From the NCBI RefSeq assembly GCF_029255185.1, contig NZ_JAPUVO010000116.1:1-43526 (forward strand): 43,526 bases of DNA, in the 5' to 3' direction. The position numbers and the translations under genes are program-made. The notes under the pieces were generated by a model. The model was not told the DNA's origin. It did no database searches and saw nothing but the letters and a program-made list of their open reading frames with translations. Origin of the DNA: Propionivibrio sp. Lineage in GTDB: Bacteria; Pseudomonadota; Gammaproteobacteria; Burkholderiales; Rhodocyclaceae. Shown in pieces: positions 21,344-26,228 of this stretch; position 1 is the stretch's first letter, and each line of letters begins with the position of its first letter.

Positions 21344-22608
21344 TGGCGCTCCATGACAGCAGCAAAAAAGCCATCGGTACCATGGCGCTGCGGCAGCAAG
21401 CGCAAACGCTCGCCGCCGTTCGGGTCACAATCGATTTCGATCGCCTGCTTGCTCAGCACCTCGGCCGCAGGCAGCGAAACGAACTCCGGGTGCGCCGCCA
21501 GAAACGCCGACACGAGCACATCGTTTTCCGCAGCGAGCAGGCTACAGGTAGCGTAAACCAGGCGCCCGCCCTTTTTCACCAGAACTGATGCCGCATGCAA
21601 TATCGCCGCCTGCTTGATCGTCAGTTCGGCGACACTTTCCGGGCTCTGCCGCCATTTCAGATCGGGGTTGCGGCGCAGTGTTCCAAGGCCCGAGCACGGC
21701 GCGTCAACCAGCACGCGATCGAGCTTGCCGGCCAGTCGCTTAATCTTGATGTCATTCTCGGACTCGATACGCACCGGATGCACATTCGACAGCCCGGAAC
21801 GCGCCAGGCGTGGCTTCAGCTTGGCCAGACGCTTCTCGGCCACATCGAAGGCGTAAAGCCGGCCTTGGGAGCGCATCAGGGCGCCAAGGAGGAGGGTTTT
21901 GCCGCCGGCACCGGCGCAAAAATCAGCGACCATTTCTCCGCGTTTTGGCTGCACCAGGAAACCGAGCAACTGGCTGCCCTCGTCTTGCACCTCAAAGCTA
22001 CCGTCAACGAAAAGAGGGTGGCGCGAAATCGACGGCTTGCCGACCAACCGGATGCCAAGCGGCGAATAGCGGCAGGCAACGGCGGCTAGACCATCGGCAT
22101 TAAGCCGGGCCAGCACCGCCTCGCGCTCTATTTTGAGCGGATTGGTGCGCAGGTCAAGCGGCGCCGACTGATTGAGGCCGATGGCCAACGCCTCGAGTTC
22201 GGTCGCAGCGAACTCGGTGCTTAGCGTCTCATACAGCCAATCCGGGAGATCGAGGCGAACCGCCGGTGGCAGATCCTCAAGCCTGATCGCCTTGGCCTGG
22301 GCCAGCCATTTGCCTTCGACTTCATTCAGGACCAAGTCCAGTTCGCGCCGATTCAACCCCTGCACGCAAGCCAGGGTGGCCAGCACCAAACGCCGGGATG
22401 TCACATCATCGCCGCAACGGGCTGCTAGTGAGCGCTTGCGGCGTAGCACCGAATAAACGGCCTCGGCAACAAAACCGCGATCGGCGTGCCCCAGCTCACG
22501 GTTCTGGCGAAAGTAGCGCGACACCACCAGATCGGCGGGGAAAGTCGAACGCAGCAACTCGGAGAGCAACGCTTCGGTATGATTAAACAGGGCGGGGGTA
22601 AAGCGCAT
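21340..22608 (-). CDS. rsmB: 16S rRNA (cytosine-967-C5)-methyltransferase RsmB-type
   Basis: SAM-dependent m5C RNA methyltransferase. The 422-residue protein has an N-terminal NusB-like helical domain (about residues 1-140) and a Rossmann methyltransferase domain. SAM motif I is VADFCAGAGGKTLLLGAL near 228. The motif IV cysteine is C305 in DAPCSGLGTLRRNPDLKWR, and the motif VI cysteine is C355 in YATCSLL. It could instead be another member of the RsmB/NOP2 family, but the NusB-like N-terminus favours RsmB. It is followed without a gap by mscS. Confidence 0.9.
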   Translation of the reverse strand: MRFTPALFNHTEALLSELLRSTFPADLVVSRYFRQNRELGHADRGFVAEAVYSVLRRKRSLAARCGDDVTSRRLVLATLACVQGLNRRELDLVLNEVEGKWLAQAKAIRLEDLPPAVRLDLPDWLYETLSTEFAATELEALAIGLNQSAPLDLRTNPLKIEREAVLARLNADGLAAVACRYSPLGIRLVGKPSISRHPLFVDGSFEVQDEGSQLLGFLVQPKRGEMVADFCAGAGGKTLLLGALMRSQGRLYAFDVAEKRLAKLKPRLARSGLSNVHPVRIESENDIKIKRLAGKLDRVLVDAPCSGLGTLRRNPDLKWRQSPESVAELTIKQAAILHAASVLVKKGGRLVYATCSLLAAENDVLVSAFLAAHPEFVSLPAAEVLSKQAIEIDCDPNGGERLRLLPQRHGTDGFFAAVMERQ

Positions 22609-22848
22609 TGGAGCAATTATCCTTGTAAGAAAAACGGGCTGTTTGGAGAGTAATTCCAGTGTGGGTGGCGGCGGAGAATAATGTGTTTACCTCGGGGGAG
22701 CAGTCGGCGACCGAGGTTTGCGAATGCCGGCTTCGGGATACATTGCAGACGTCCAGCCCAATATGTTCGATCTGACCGCCCCCGACCCATAGGAGCCGCT
22801 CGGGCTTTCGAAAAAGCGGACCATCGCCCCCAAGGCATGAAACGCATC
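22609..22848 (-). other. Non-coding stretch between rsmB and the secreted-protein gene
   Basis: No ORF here has a ribosome-binding site or recognisable product. On the minus strand it contains text such as CCGAGCGGCTCCTATGGGTC and CGGTCGCCGACTGCTCC. These resemble the degenerate 'accgcttttgggtcg' type of decayed sequence seen between genes in related genomes (recalled, not searched). Similar text occurs at about 23560-23640. Confidence 0.3.
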
Positions 22849-23481
22849 CTACTGGTAGCACTTCGAAAACACCGGCTTGGTCTTCCTTAGAACGACGATA
22901 TTGCGAGGATAGGTCCCCGCACTGTCAGTTTCACCGAGGCTTACGATCGGATCGACAATTTTAAGTGTCACGTTTGCCGACCAGCACTTCATTCCTTCTT
23001 CGTCGGATGGTTTTGGTCCGCCGAGCTTCTTGTAGTCGGCATCGCTGCCAAGCTTGAACTCACAAAACCTTCTTAGAAATGCTGGCTCCGGCGGCATATC
23101 GCATTCGATGGCGAATGAAAGGTCGCCAGAATCACTTGGCTCCATTCCGGCCGATCCAGTGAGCTTGATTTGACCAGATAGATAGATTTCACCGTCAGGC
23201 ATGCCGCCATACCGGTCGTAGTGATCGAGAGAAGCTTTTTCTTTCTCTAGGTCGATCCAACGGTCTGAACTATCACGTAGGCCGCAGACCGCGCTAAGGC
23301 GAAGTCCGCGCGGCGGAGTAACTTCAAGGTTCGATAGCTCGTTGCCGCAGTAGCAGGGAACGGGCCTCTCCCATCTTTCAGACAACTCGTTTGATAGAGC
23401 CACGCACTTCTCGGCGGTTGAACGGGCTTCTGAACTAATTGCAGCCAGAAGCAGCAGCATCATTATCGCGAAGCGTTTCAT
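22849..23481 (-). CDS. Secreted hypothetical protein
   Basis: A 210-residue protein whose N-terminus (MKRFAIMMLLLLAAISSEARS) is a clear signal peptide. The mature part has several cysteines (EKC, PCYCGNE, SAVCGL, AIECDMP, RRFCEFK, MKCWS, SKCYQ), suggesting disulfides in the periplasm or outside. It is rich in charged residues and has no family I can name. The frame extends upstream to 23766, but the signal peptide fixes the start at ATG 23481. It lies downstream of the DUF6883/DUF4926 pair on the same strand after a 172-nt gap. The base composition of this islet is lower in GC than its flanks. Confidence 0.6.
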   Translation of the reverse strand: MKRFAIMMLLLLAAISSEARSTAEKCVALSNELSERWERPVPCYCGNELSNLEVTPPRGLRLSAVCGLRDSSDRWIDLEKEKASLDHYDRYGGMPDGEIYLSGQIKLTGSAGMEPSDSGDLSFAIECDMPPEPAFLRRFCEFKLGSDADYKKLGGPKPSDEEGMKCWSANVTLKIVDPIVSLGETDSAGTYPRNIVVLRKTKPVFSKCYQ

Positions 23482-23653
23482 TACTCGCCCTGGCTCCTTA
23501 CGAATTCCGAAAGTGGTTACGAGAGAACAGTTGAACGGCTGCTTTATGACCAAAATGCAACCGGCCGCTTCTGGCCGGGGACGGACGGCCAATTTCCGGC
23601 AGACACGCGCCGGGAATGTCCGGGGGTAACTGGAAACCGCTCGGTCGACCTTG

Positions 23654-23860
23654 CTACGCGGCCATAGCCGGGGAATGACGAAGCTCGATAAGTTGGCTGA
23701 TAGGGATCGGTTCAATCGCATAGGCCATCCCCCCAAGATCAGCGAACTCAACAAGAACAAAATCATCGCCTAATTCATCGACGATGGTGCCAACCTGTCC
23801 TTTGGCGAGGTGAATTGCTGGAAGGTCTTCCAAGGTCGCAACGACATCAAGTAGTTTCAT
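23654..23860 (-). CDS. DUF4926 domain protein
   Basis: A 68-residue protein (MKLLDVVATLEDLPAIHLAK then GQVGTIVDEL, FVLVEFADLGGMAYAIEPI) that matches the DUF4926 pattern 'kLLDvVal..dlp..gL..GqvGTIVe....VEF.d..G'. This family is a small SH3-like-looking all-beta protein of unknown function. It often lies next to a DUF6883 protein, as here (family knowledge). GGAG lies 6 nt before ATG 23860. A TTG at 23872 is in frame but less likely. Its first 14 nt overlap the end of the DUF6883 gene, so translation is probably coupled. Confidence 0.8.
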   Translation of the reverse strand: MKLLDVVATLEDLPAIHLAKGQVGTIVDELGDDFVLVEFADLGGMAYAIEPIPISQLIELRHSPAMAA

Positions 23861-24200
23861 TGCATTCTCCAATCACGTAGCATGTCGCCAGTTTTGCCAT
23901 GTCAGTTGCACACAACCAACCCGTTCGCACCTTGGCGCATCTCTGACCACGGACAATCTCCATATCAACCCGGTAGATCGATCCCCAGTAAGTGTTGCTT
24001 TGCAGTACTGCCTCCGATTTCCGTAGTCCGGCAAAGATTGCGGAGGCCAACCACTCTCCATCTGCTGCTGCGATGCCCAAAGCGGATAGAAAGACGCGGG
24101 CCTTGTGTCGGCCCTCTGGATGGTTCGTATTCAACACATAACCGGTGAGCTTTTTGAGGTCAATGTTGGCGTTTTCGATATTCGGTAGCAACACGGTCAT
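23847..24200 (-). CDS. DUF6883 domain protein
   Basis: A 117-residue protein whose pattern LPNIENANIDLKKLTGYVLN, HPEGRHKARVFLSALGI, YWGSIYRVD and KVRTGWLC fits DUF6883. That family is a small domain also found at the C-terminus of some polymorphic-toxin and phage-head-like proteins (recalled). The HP.G.HKARVF block is the most conserved part and holds the candidate active or binding residues. The ATG (24200) overlaps the stop of the upstream 52-residue ORF (ATGA), and its own end overlaps the DUF4926 start by 14 nt. Function is unknown. A toxin or modifier role is speculation from context. Confidence 0.75.
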   Translation of the reverse strand: MTVLLPNIENANIDLKKLTGYVLNTNHPEGRHKARVFLSALGIAAADGEWLASAIFAGLRKSEAVLQSNTYWGSIYRVDMEIVRGQRCAKVRTGWLCATDMAKLATCYVIGECNETT

Positions 24201-24355
24201 CGAACTCTCGGCAAACGCGTCTGTCCCGTCATATCCTCATACAGCCAATCGGCCAGACTGGGCCTGTGTTCCCATTGGGAGGCCGGAACATCCTTCAGCC
24301 AAGTATCAAAGCTGTCCTTTGTCTCGAGAGGCAACATGGCAACATGCGAACACAT
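24197..24355 (-). CDS. Small 52-residue ORF heading the DUF6883/DUF4926 cluster
   Basis: An ORF of 52 codons that begins MCSHVAMLPLETKDSFDTWL and ends DMTGQTRLPRVR. AGGA lies 5 nt before the ATG at 24353-24355. Its stop overlaps the DUF6883 start codon in an ATGA, the strongest sign that it is translated. It is rich in Trp, Asp and Glu (TWLKDVPASQWEHRPSLADWLYED), mostly acidic in the middle and basic at the end. No family is recognised. It could be a leader, an antitoxin-like partner or the truncated end of a longer gene. Confidence 0.5.
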   Translation of the reverse strand: MCSHVAMLPLETKDSFDTWLKDVPASQWEHRPSLADWLYEDMTGQTRLPRVR

Positions 24356-24547
24356 AGAAATCCTATGGACGAAACTAGATCACAAAGAGAGCGGAAATAC
24401 AATGCTGCCCCATGAACAGGATAAATTTGTTCTACCGCTAACCCATTGATTTGCTGTCATTCCGTGCTTGACCCGATCCAGTTCGTTTATCAAACAGGTC
24501 TTTTAACACCTTGATCAAATGGACAAATCTGGATTCCGGCTTGCGCC

Positions 24548-24569
24548 GAAAAATAGCGCGGCGCCGCGC
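24548..24569 (-). terminator. Rho-independent terminator of the purN-DUF3108 unit
   Basis: On the minus strand the 14-nt perfect palindrome GCGCGGCGCCGCGC (24556-24569) is followed by TATTTTTC. It begins 9 nt after the DUF3108 stop codon. Confidence 0.75.
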
Positions 24570-24578
24570 ACGCCACGA

Positions 24579-25568
24579 TCAGCGTGGTTTAAGTCCATCA
24601 GCTTCATCGCCCACCTGAATCTTGGTGGCAACCTGGACAAAGCTGTCGCCCTTGGCATCCACATGCCGGATTTTAACCGGCAGCAGCAAATAATCATAAG
24701 CCAACCAGAGTTCGGTCGTATTCGTTCCCGGAGCGCGCAGGTGCAAGGTACGCATTGTGCCAGCCGGCAGCTCAATGACTTCGTCGCCCAACACCTCAAG
24801 ATGATAAACCCCGTACTTCCTGCCGGTCGTGATCGATAGACTGCCACCGGCCTCGGGATGTGGCAGGTAGCCGAGCTGATAATTGAACGACAGCAGATCC
24901 TGTGCGCCGTAGTCCAGAGGCTGCTCGCTGCGGTCTGCGATACGCACGCTCATGTTCTGCCAGTCGAAGGTGGCCGTCTCCCTCGCCTCCTGACCATTGC
25001 GCCGAATGGCAAAGGTCTCGGGTTGCAGGCCAGCAACTGTTATTAGTCCACGGCTTTCCATCTCAATGCGGATGGCCTTGAATAGCCAGATAAGACCCGT
25101 CGTTTCGACCACAGACGTCAAGTGGTAGTGCCCATCGACGATAGACCACTCCTGCTGGGCAACACCGATTTCGAAATTCGAATCGCCACGATCGACCCGA
25201 TAACGAATCATTCCGTGGGCTGGCAGGCGCGCTTCGACAGGCGTCAACTCGGGTTCCGGCGGCGGCGTTACCGCTGGTTCCGGCCCTGTCTGGGGCAAAG
25301 CCAGTAACGACGTATCGGGAACGCTCAGTCCCTGGGTGGTGCTGGCGACGCTTCCCTCCTTGCGCCGCGGCATTCTCGACTTGGCCGGCTTCTGCGGATC
25401 AGGCCGAGTCGCCGTTTCGACCTGCGGCGGTGGCTTGGATGTGGGTTTGAGCTCGGCTATGAGCGGCGTTGATTCGGCCTCGGCCGACAGTTCGATTTCC
25501 GGCCCGAACAACAGCGCTGCGTGAATGCCGAGCGAAGCGGCAAGAGCAATAAGCAGAAAAAAGGGCAT
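24579..25568 (-). CDS. DUF3108 domain protein, membrane-anchored periplasmic
   Basis: A 329-residue protein with one N-terminal membrane anchor (MPFFLLIALAASLGIHAALL). A Pro-rich, low-complexity linker follows at about residues 35-115 (PTSKPPPQVETATRPDPQKP, PPPEPELTPVEA). A folded C-terminal domain has the DUF3108 pattern (MIRYRVDRGDSNFEIG, LTSVVETTGLIWLFK, YHLEVLGDEVIELPAGTMRT, ELWLAYDYLLLPVKIRHVD). The anchor plus Pro-rich linker is TonB-like in layout and would let the domain reach across the periplasm. It starts 3 nt after the purN stop. This adjacency is common in betaproteobacteria, but its role is unknown. Confidence 0.82.
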   Translation of the reverse strand: MPFFLLIALAASLGIHAALLFGPEIELSAEAESTPLIAELKPTSKPPPQVETATRPDPQKPAKSRMPRRKEGSVASTTQGLSVPDTSLLALPQTGPEPAVTPPPEPELTPVEARLPAHGMIRYRVDRGDSNFEIGVAQQEWSIVDGHYHLTSVVETTGLIWLFKAIRIEMESRGLITVAGLQPETFAIRRNGQEARETATFDWQNMSVRIADRSEQPLDYGAQDLLSFNYQLGYLPHPEAGGSLSITTGRKYGVYHLEVLGDEVIELPAGTMRTLHLRAPGTNTTELWLAYDYLLLPVKIRHVDAKGDSFVQVATKIQVGDEADGLKPR

Positions 25569-25571
25569 GCG

Positions 25572-26228
25572 CTAACGCGCAACTCGCGCCAGCGGCGACA
25601 CCAGGGCGCCAGCGCTGTCCTGCGGCGCACTGAAGACAACCCGCCCATCGACCAACTGTAGATGACCTTCAGCGAACCAGCGCACGGCCAGCGGATAAAC
25701 CTGATGCTCCTGGGCCAGCACCCGCGCCGCGAGGCTGGCGGCGTCATCGCCGTCAAGCACCGGAACGGCGGCTTGAACGATGATCGGGCCGTGATCAAGC
25801 GCCGGGGTCACGAAATGCACCGTACAGCCATGCACCCGCACGCCCTCATCAATCGCCCGCTGATGGGTGTGCAGACCGGGGAAGGACGGCAGCAGCGAAG
25901 GATGGATATTGATCAATCGCCCGGCGAAATGGCGCACGAAACCATCGCTCAAAATTCGCATGAAACCGGCCAGCACGACCAGATCCGGAGAAAAAGCATC
26001 AATGGCTTCGGCCAGGGCGGCATCGAAGGCATCGCGCGAGGCAAATGACCTGTGTTCGACAACGCGCGTCACAACGCCTGCTGCCGCAGCCGTTTCCAGC
26101 CCTTTGGCATCGGCCCGGTTGGCCAGCACCGCCGCCACGCGCACCGGCAGCGATCCCGCAGCGACAGCGGCCAGCAGCGACTCCATATTGCTGCCGCGAC
26201 CGGAGATGAGAATGACGATTGATTTCAT
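25572..26228 (-). CDS. purN: Phosphoribosylglycinamide formyltransferase
   Basis: Transfers the formyl group of 10-formyl-tetrahydrofolate to GAR in de novo purine synthesis (cytosol). The 218-residue protein has the phosphate-binding ISGRGSNM loop near residue 9, N107-I-H109-P and the catalytic D145 in PALDHGPII. These match E. coli N106, H108 and D144 to within one position. The hinge LPSFPGLHTHQRAI is also present. It is transcribed just ahead of the DUF3108 gene. An unusual inverted repeat lies directly upstream of its start. Confidence 0.96.
   Translation of the reverse strand: MKSIVILISGRGSNMESLLAAVAAGSLPVRVAAVLANRADAKGLETAAAAGVVTRVVEHRSFASRDAFDAALAEAIDAFSPDLVVLAGFMRILSDGFVRHFAGRLINIHPSLLPSFPGLHTHQRAIDEGVRVHGCTVHFVTPALDHGPIIVQAAVPVLDGDDAASLAARVLAQEHQVYPLAVRWFAEGHLQLVDGRVVFSAPQDSAGALVSPLARVAR

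Follow-up and report, generated by a model that had tools for sequence, protein, structure and literature searches.

A DUF6883–DUF4926 gene pair in Propionivibrio sp. as a predicted ribonuclease toxin–antitoxin unit on a small genomic insertion

What is the function of two small overlapping genes, encoding the domains DUF6883 and DUF4926, that lie among housekeeping genes of Propionivibrio sp.? This question was examined for a 43,526-nucleotide (nt) stretch of DNA (contig NZ_JAPUVO010000116.1, assembly GCF_029255185.1; hereafter the window), in which the pair is preceded by a 52-codon open reading frame (ORF). The original prediction had grouped all three genes into one system, suggested to be a toxin–immunity or a modifier–adaptor unit. 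Our analysis suggests that DUF6883 is probably an endoribonuclease toxin of the BECR (Barnase/EndoU/Colicin/RelE) fold and DUF4926 its blocker, the two forming a standalone toxin–antitoxin (TA)-like unit on an insertion of about 2 kb. This reading is built on the near-constant pairing of the genes, a fold match, conserved candidate catalytic positions, toxin-type architectures in relatives, and the insertion itself; toxicity, ribonuclease (RNase) activity, a tRNA substrate, and neutralisation by DUF4926 are predicted from them. The features of the locus are as follows.

24197..24355, minus strand: 52-codon ORF (52 aa, ATG start), which may serve as a leader or for coupling; not conserved as a component
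23847..24200, minus strand: DUF6883 gene (117 aa), predicted BECR-fold RNase toxin
23654..23860, minus strand: DUF4926 gene (68 aa from its own ATG), predicted antitoxin/immunity protein
24197..24200, minus strand: ATGA stop/start overlap of the 52-codon ORF and DUF6883 (4 nt)
23847..23860, minus strand: overlap of DUF6883 and DUF4926 (14 nt)
24361..24364, minus strand: AGGA, Shine-Dalgarno-like, 5 bases before the ATG of the 52-codon ORF
23867..23870, minus strand: GGAG, Shine-Dalgarno-like, before the DUF4926 ATG
24206..24247, minus strand: 42-nt block common to the DNA upstream of the Ferrovum myxofaciens DUF6883 (36/42 identical)
22609..24578, minus strand: inserted islet, with the DUF3108 gene and the rsmB-like gene on its two sides
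22849..23481, minus strand: hypothetical protein of 210 aa, same islet; its start resembles a signal peptide (by eye)

DUF6883 was assigned to PF21814 (E = 9.7e-32, 109.9 bits against a Pfam cut-off of 27) and DUF4926 to PF16277 (E = 2.3e-17, 62.5 bits against 29.1), and both assignments agree, together with the coordinates, with the predicted series of three minus-strand ORFs linked by an ATGA and a 14-nt overlap. The proposed low-G+C islet among housekeeping genes was also recovered: the G+C content of the trio is 0.523 as compared with 0.583 for the window, which places it in the lowest 3.4% of 702-nt windows, and it is flanked by a DUF3108 gene and by genes that were named by eye as purN-like and rsmB-like. 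Relatives, designated here by locus (L) and genome (G) numbers, were collected by scanning genome contigs for GRHKARVF, a pattern that favoured the standalone form. DUF4926 was located directly downstream of DUF6883 in 78 of the 80 genome loci taken as the best among 190 relatives; the other two are L043, whose contig ends 34 nt after DUF6883, and L102, which lacks DUF4926. Four viral loci contain DUF4926 too. The median gap between the genes is 1 nt, with an overlap in 40/82 loci when DUF4926 starts are chosen by script, and the pairing is far above chance. On plasmids, DUF6883 followed by DUF4926 was annotated in 4/6 first records; a Rahnella plasmid carries an annotated DUF4926 behind an unannotated DUF6883, and both domains were seen by profile in an unannotated record (L026). 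The order is reversed in a genus labelled Methylobacterium-like on the basis of named Methylobacterium plasmids with the same reversed arrangement. There, DUF6883 matches occur in 57 of 99 genomes, up to seven per genome, and a DUF4926-like gene lies upstream in all 29 newly fetched loci (best matches). The two domains also occur within one 175-codon frame (L002). Overall, DUF6883 is patchy, being detected in 18 of 300 genomes of the order and 7 of 398 of the phylum. The pair thus recurs widely in bacteria, as had been proposed, and in the manner of a type II TA system its two small, adjacent, and co-oriented genes are kept together (78/80 and 29/29 loci).

Members of the BECR superfamily are composed of N-terminal helices followed by a four-stranded sheet, and DUF6883 exhibits this same arrangement, as in the solved members. 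Its candidate catalytic residues are K17, Y21, H27, K103, and T106, of which the K103 position is occupied by R in 87 of 141 relatives. The K, Y, R/K, and T/S residues were placed at positions typical of the contact-dependent inhibition (CDI) toxins of Klebsiella pneumoniae 342 (Kp342) and E. coli 3006 (EC3006) by range arithmetic, not by residue-level superposition, and in this comparison Y160 is one residue off and the H is shifted by 3. The modelled fold suggests that DUF6883 is most likely a BECR endoribonuclease closest to the CDI tRNase toxins and would cut tRNA, which is the best-guess substrate because the two nearest folds are tRNases. Alphaproteobacterial relatives of DUF4926 weakly match SH3_12 in Pfam, the basis for describing this domain as SH3-like. 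BrnT of the BrnTA system is an RNase of another target class than tRNA, and BrnA is a DNA-binding antitoxin. The BrnT structure (PDB 3U97) is similar to DUF6883, whereas the partner DUF4926 is a small protein with weakly SH3-like relatives and not BrnA. The CdiA-CT/CdiI pair of Kp342 (CT, C-terminal toxin region; PDB 6CP9) shares 14% identity with the window protein, which in contrast stands alone without the CdiA delivery parts and has DUF4926 as its partner. CdiA-CT of EC3006 (PDB 6CP8, 6VEK) is also a delivered toxin, and its immunity protein is described as all-helical (PMC9086364). A PDB sequence search with P0002, a toxin-fused relative, A4, and A1 yielded nothing credible. A match of DUF4926 to chain 4u08 (LIC11098; E = 0.003) contained no stretch passing alone and was not used.

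Toxin-type architectures were observed in relatives. On a viral contig (L112), DUF6883 forms the C-terminal part of a Phage_min_cap2 protein and is followed by DUF4926. On an Anoxybacillus plasmid (L245), it is C-terminal in a Phage_Mu_F protein encoded between portal and scaffold genes, and a 56-aa protein occupies the immunity-gene position (L245:5371-5541); the latter matched no DUF4926 model and might be a DUF4926 that has drifted. In polymorphic toxins, the MuF family among them, a variable C-terminal toxic domain is countered by immunity proteins (PMC12226406). These two proteins resemble the MuF toxins described for temperate phages (PMC5576092, PMC12226406) in having DUF6883 at the C-terminus of a MuF-type capsid protein, and they bear out the earlier suggestion that DUF6883 is also a C-terminal module of toxin-like proteins. 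The DUF6883 of the window differs from them, as it is a standalone 117-aa protein, belonging neither to a phage gene nor to the C-terminus of a delivered protein. In Rahnella (L025) and a viral locus (L244), DUF6883 terminates long open frames that show no second recognised domain and have DUF4926 behind them. Separately, DUF6883 lies in the middle of proteins of about 500 aa in L014:1075-2631 and L202:4242-5729, with more C-terminal sequence and no DUF4926 found nearby. Two tandem copies occur in L019:1258-2236, in both of which DUF6883 is truncated and the DUF4926 behind it intact. In L136:1468-2010, DUF4926 has no DUF6883 beside it and lies immediately upstream of a coding stretch that looks Rhs-like by eye.

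The state of the two genes was scored mechanically in 160 locus entries with DUF6883, which are not fully independent. Both genes are intact in 135 entries, while DUF6883 is broken beside an intact DUF4926 in 15 (L204 being doubtful) and broken with DUF4926 absent in 2. An intact DUF6883 without DUF4926 was recorded in 5 entries (two contig ends; L014 and L202, where it lies inside a larger protein; and L102), and DUF4926 is partial in 3 (two contig ends and L201). Sign tests gave p = 0.001 for 14 versus 1 and p = 0.013 for 14 versus 3; by hand arithmetic these become approximately 0.002 (13 versus 1) and 0.02 (13 versus 3) when L149, found via DUF4926, is removed. The other decay loci were found via DUF6883, so that its complete loss is under-counted, a bias that runs against the result. 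Where one of the two genes has decayed, it is thus usually the putative toxin gene, an asymmetry that bears indirectly on toxicity. A real exception is L102:4872-5700, where DUF6883 is intact although DUF4926 was found neither behind it nor elsewhere in the genome. The toxin–immunity half of the original prediction is well supported by the fold, the candidate catalytic positions, the two MuF-type relatives, the decay of the toxin gene, and the occurrence of both gene orders, while the modifier–adaptor half found no support.

The pair could instead be a stranded polymorphic (CDI, Rhs, or MuF) cassette, in which DUF4926 protects against the DUF6883 of neighbours or phages and the cell's own DUF6883 is an undelivered leftover. 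Fused relatives do exist, DUF4926 is found with no or a degenerate DUF6883 within 1.5 kb in L136, L140, L148, and L149, and the tandem copies of L019 are degenerate, all of which would fit such an origin. However, standalone pairs are the common form in the scanned set (the scan favoured them), their frames are full-length with candidate catalytic positions intact, and they reside on plasmids and behind many different genes. We therefore consider the stranded cassette unlikely. In the TA-like reading, DUF4926 most likely binds DUF6883 and blocks its active face; loss or removal of DUF4926 would leave free DUF6883 to cut RNA and halt translation. The window pair stands alone and should therefore act inside its own cell, where it would serve in addiction or in the stress response, with phages as a conceivable target.

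The insertion was traced by comparing the junction between the DUF3108 and rsmB-like genes. The DUF3108 protein was found in 36 of the 40 genomes searched, including the window's own. Among 21 loci from other members of the genus (L217-L237), L228 and L235 end before the junction, leaving 19 that can be evaluated. In 18 of them, DUF3108 and the rsmB-like gene behind it are no more than about 230 nt apart, the single deviating locus being L230, which has no rsmB within its stretch; in L217 the DUF3108 stop and rsmB-like start codons overlap. The same junction in the window holds about 2 kb (22609-24578) with the 52-codon ORF, the pair, and the 210-aa hypothetical protein. Because DUF3108 and rsmB are adjacent in nearly all evaluable same-genus loci, we infer that the DUF6883–DUF4926 pair came to this site in the window's lineage. 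No common repeat of 9-14 nt was found between the islet borders (24401-24600 versus 22601-22900), positions 22700-25700 matched no similar plasmid DNA, and tblastn with the 210-aa protein (E up to 1e-3) matched none of the other loci compared.

The 52-residue ORF had been proposed as a new third component, an adaptor or modifier. Its ATGA overlap and good ribosome site, and the 36/42 nt common to Ferrovum at the same place, are compatible with a true three-part system. Its length proves nothing, as many ORFs of this length are listed in the window. A tblastn search against 112 loci and a comparison of upstream ORFs, for which 78 of 84 database loci offered candidates, identified a single counterpart, a 20-codon Ferrovum ORF matching its last codons (local score 60 versus 46 or less among 200 shuffles). 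Of the six differences in this block, 4 alter a residue and 2 do not (hand count); thus the alignment gives no sign of selection on the peptide. Of the 300 genomes of the order, 78 yielded matches with an E-value of 1 or less, 0.011 being the lowest apart from the ORF's own genome. These were taken as chance except for 17 residues in G200 (E = 0.735), which are the same sequence as the Ferrovum record. No Pfam, PADLOC, or PHROGs family matched the ORF, and a single NCBIfam model did so far under its cut-off; weak NCBIfam matches (YebG, GroES) scored under cut-off. A viral 11-residue match and weak Fic-protein matches were also rejected. Genes recurring upstream of other pairs are different ones (AcrB-like, GyrB-like, and AroE-like, by eye). 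The pair is directly behind an AcrB-like transporter gene in ten Bradyrhizobium loci (L049, L053, L067, L069, L078, L084, L091, L094, L102, L108; by eye) and behind GyrB-like genes in three further loci (by eye). The trio does not recur, and a three-part system appears very improbable. As judged from these comparisons, the 52-residue ORF does not belong to the pair as a conserved partner, and the trio is really a duo. A good ribosome site is missing at the DUF6883 start itself, and the 52-codon ORF would only couple translation to that start.

DUF4926 was also found fused to restriction enzymes in other genomes. In a Methylobacterium-like genome (G445, L206), an operon runs hsdM-hsdS-hsdR-DUF6883 (hsdM and hsdS named by eye), of which the 1098-aa HsdR (L206:7717-11400; HSDR_N, SWI2_SNF2, and T1R_D3-like domains) matches DUF4926 at its C-terminus (residues 1040-1083; 32.5 bits against the cut-off of 29.1), and the ATG of the DUF6883 frame overlaps the hsdR stop codon. 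Plasmids of Rhizobium etli and Agrobacterium pusense encode a methyltransferase and a BPTD_3080-family restriction endonuclease (type III-like), whose DUF4926-like C-terminus overlaps DUF6883 (L196:4042-7381 and L197:4042-7381). The Pfam match of this domain in G538 (L157), whose DUF6883 is identical to that of R. etli, is under cut-off (17.4 bits, E = 0.003), and no match to DUF4926 was obtained with the R. etli protein at E 0.01; stronger scores came from a seven-sequence profile that itself contained the L157 domain. In the 114 nt before the domain, R. etli has no in-frame start codon and A. pusense one GTG. Judging from these alignments, the fusion to HsdR is clear and that to the type III-like subunit probable, so that two kinds of restriction enzyme are concerned. 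The latter fusion is rare because DUF6883 is patchy (3 of 289 genomes of G538's class and 2 of 199 of its family). Fusions were accepted for L206 and L196/L197/L157 only; in high-G+C genomes, DUF4926 also lies within long open frames, which were set aside for want of support.

These operons resemble PrrC–PrrI, in which an anticodon nuclease is held by a type I restriction system (PMC3506569), in that DUF6883 follows a restriction subunit with a presumed inhibitor. They differ in the nuclease, PrrC being HEPN-type (PMC3506569), and in the inhibitor, which in these operons would be an antitoxin domain fused to the enzyme. If the restriction enzyme were lost or inhibited, the antitoxin would go with it and the RNase would be released, giving a self-guarding restriction system with an explicit antitoxin, and the fused arrangement is perhaps an antitoxin-tethered restriction guard. 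That the family as a whole is a widespread RNase TA family wired into restriction enzymes through such fusions is a tentative proposal, held down because the type III-like matches are under the Pfam cut-off. The restriction linkage was seen in L206, L196, L197, and L157 and not in the window islet, whose candidate genes include no restriction gene; no search for one extended to the remainder of the window or genome. A reversal of roles, with DUF4926 toxic and DUF6883 restraining it, would suit the inverted gene order of alphaproteobacteria and the fusion of DUF4926, not DUF6883, to restriction subunits, but is highly improbable, since the nuclease fold and candidate catalytic positions belong to DUF6883, it is this domain that forms the C-terminus of the two MuF-type proteins, and DUF4926 persists where DUF6883 is broken.

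PADLOC returned no anti-phage family for the five proteins scanned (E up to 1), PHROGs no family, and 50,697 phage records no match to P0002 or the L026 domain at E 1e-5. In the open-licence PubMed Central literature searched, no mention of DUF6883, PF21814, or PF16277 was found, and DUF4926 is mentioned in PMC10343443 alone. Under the present reading, two widespread domains so far lacking a known function acquire a specific and testable role, that of an RNase toxin and its antidote, and one family would join standalone pairs, MuF-type phage proteins, and restriction operons.
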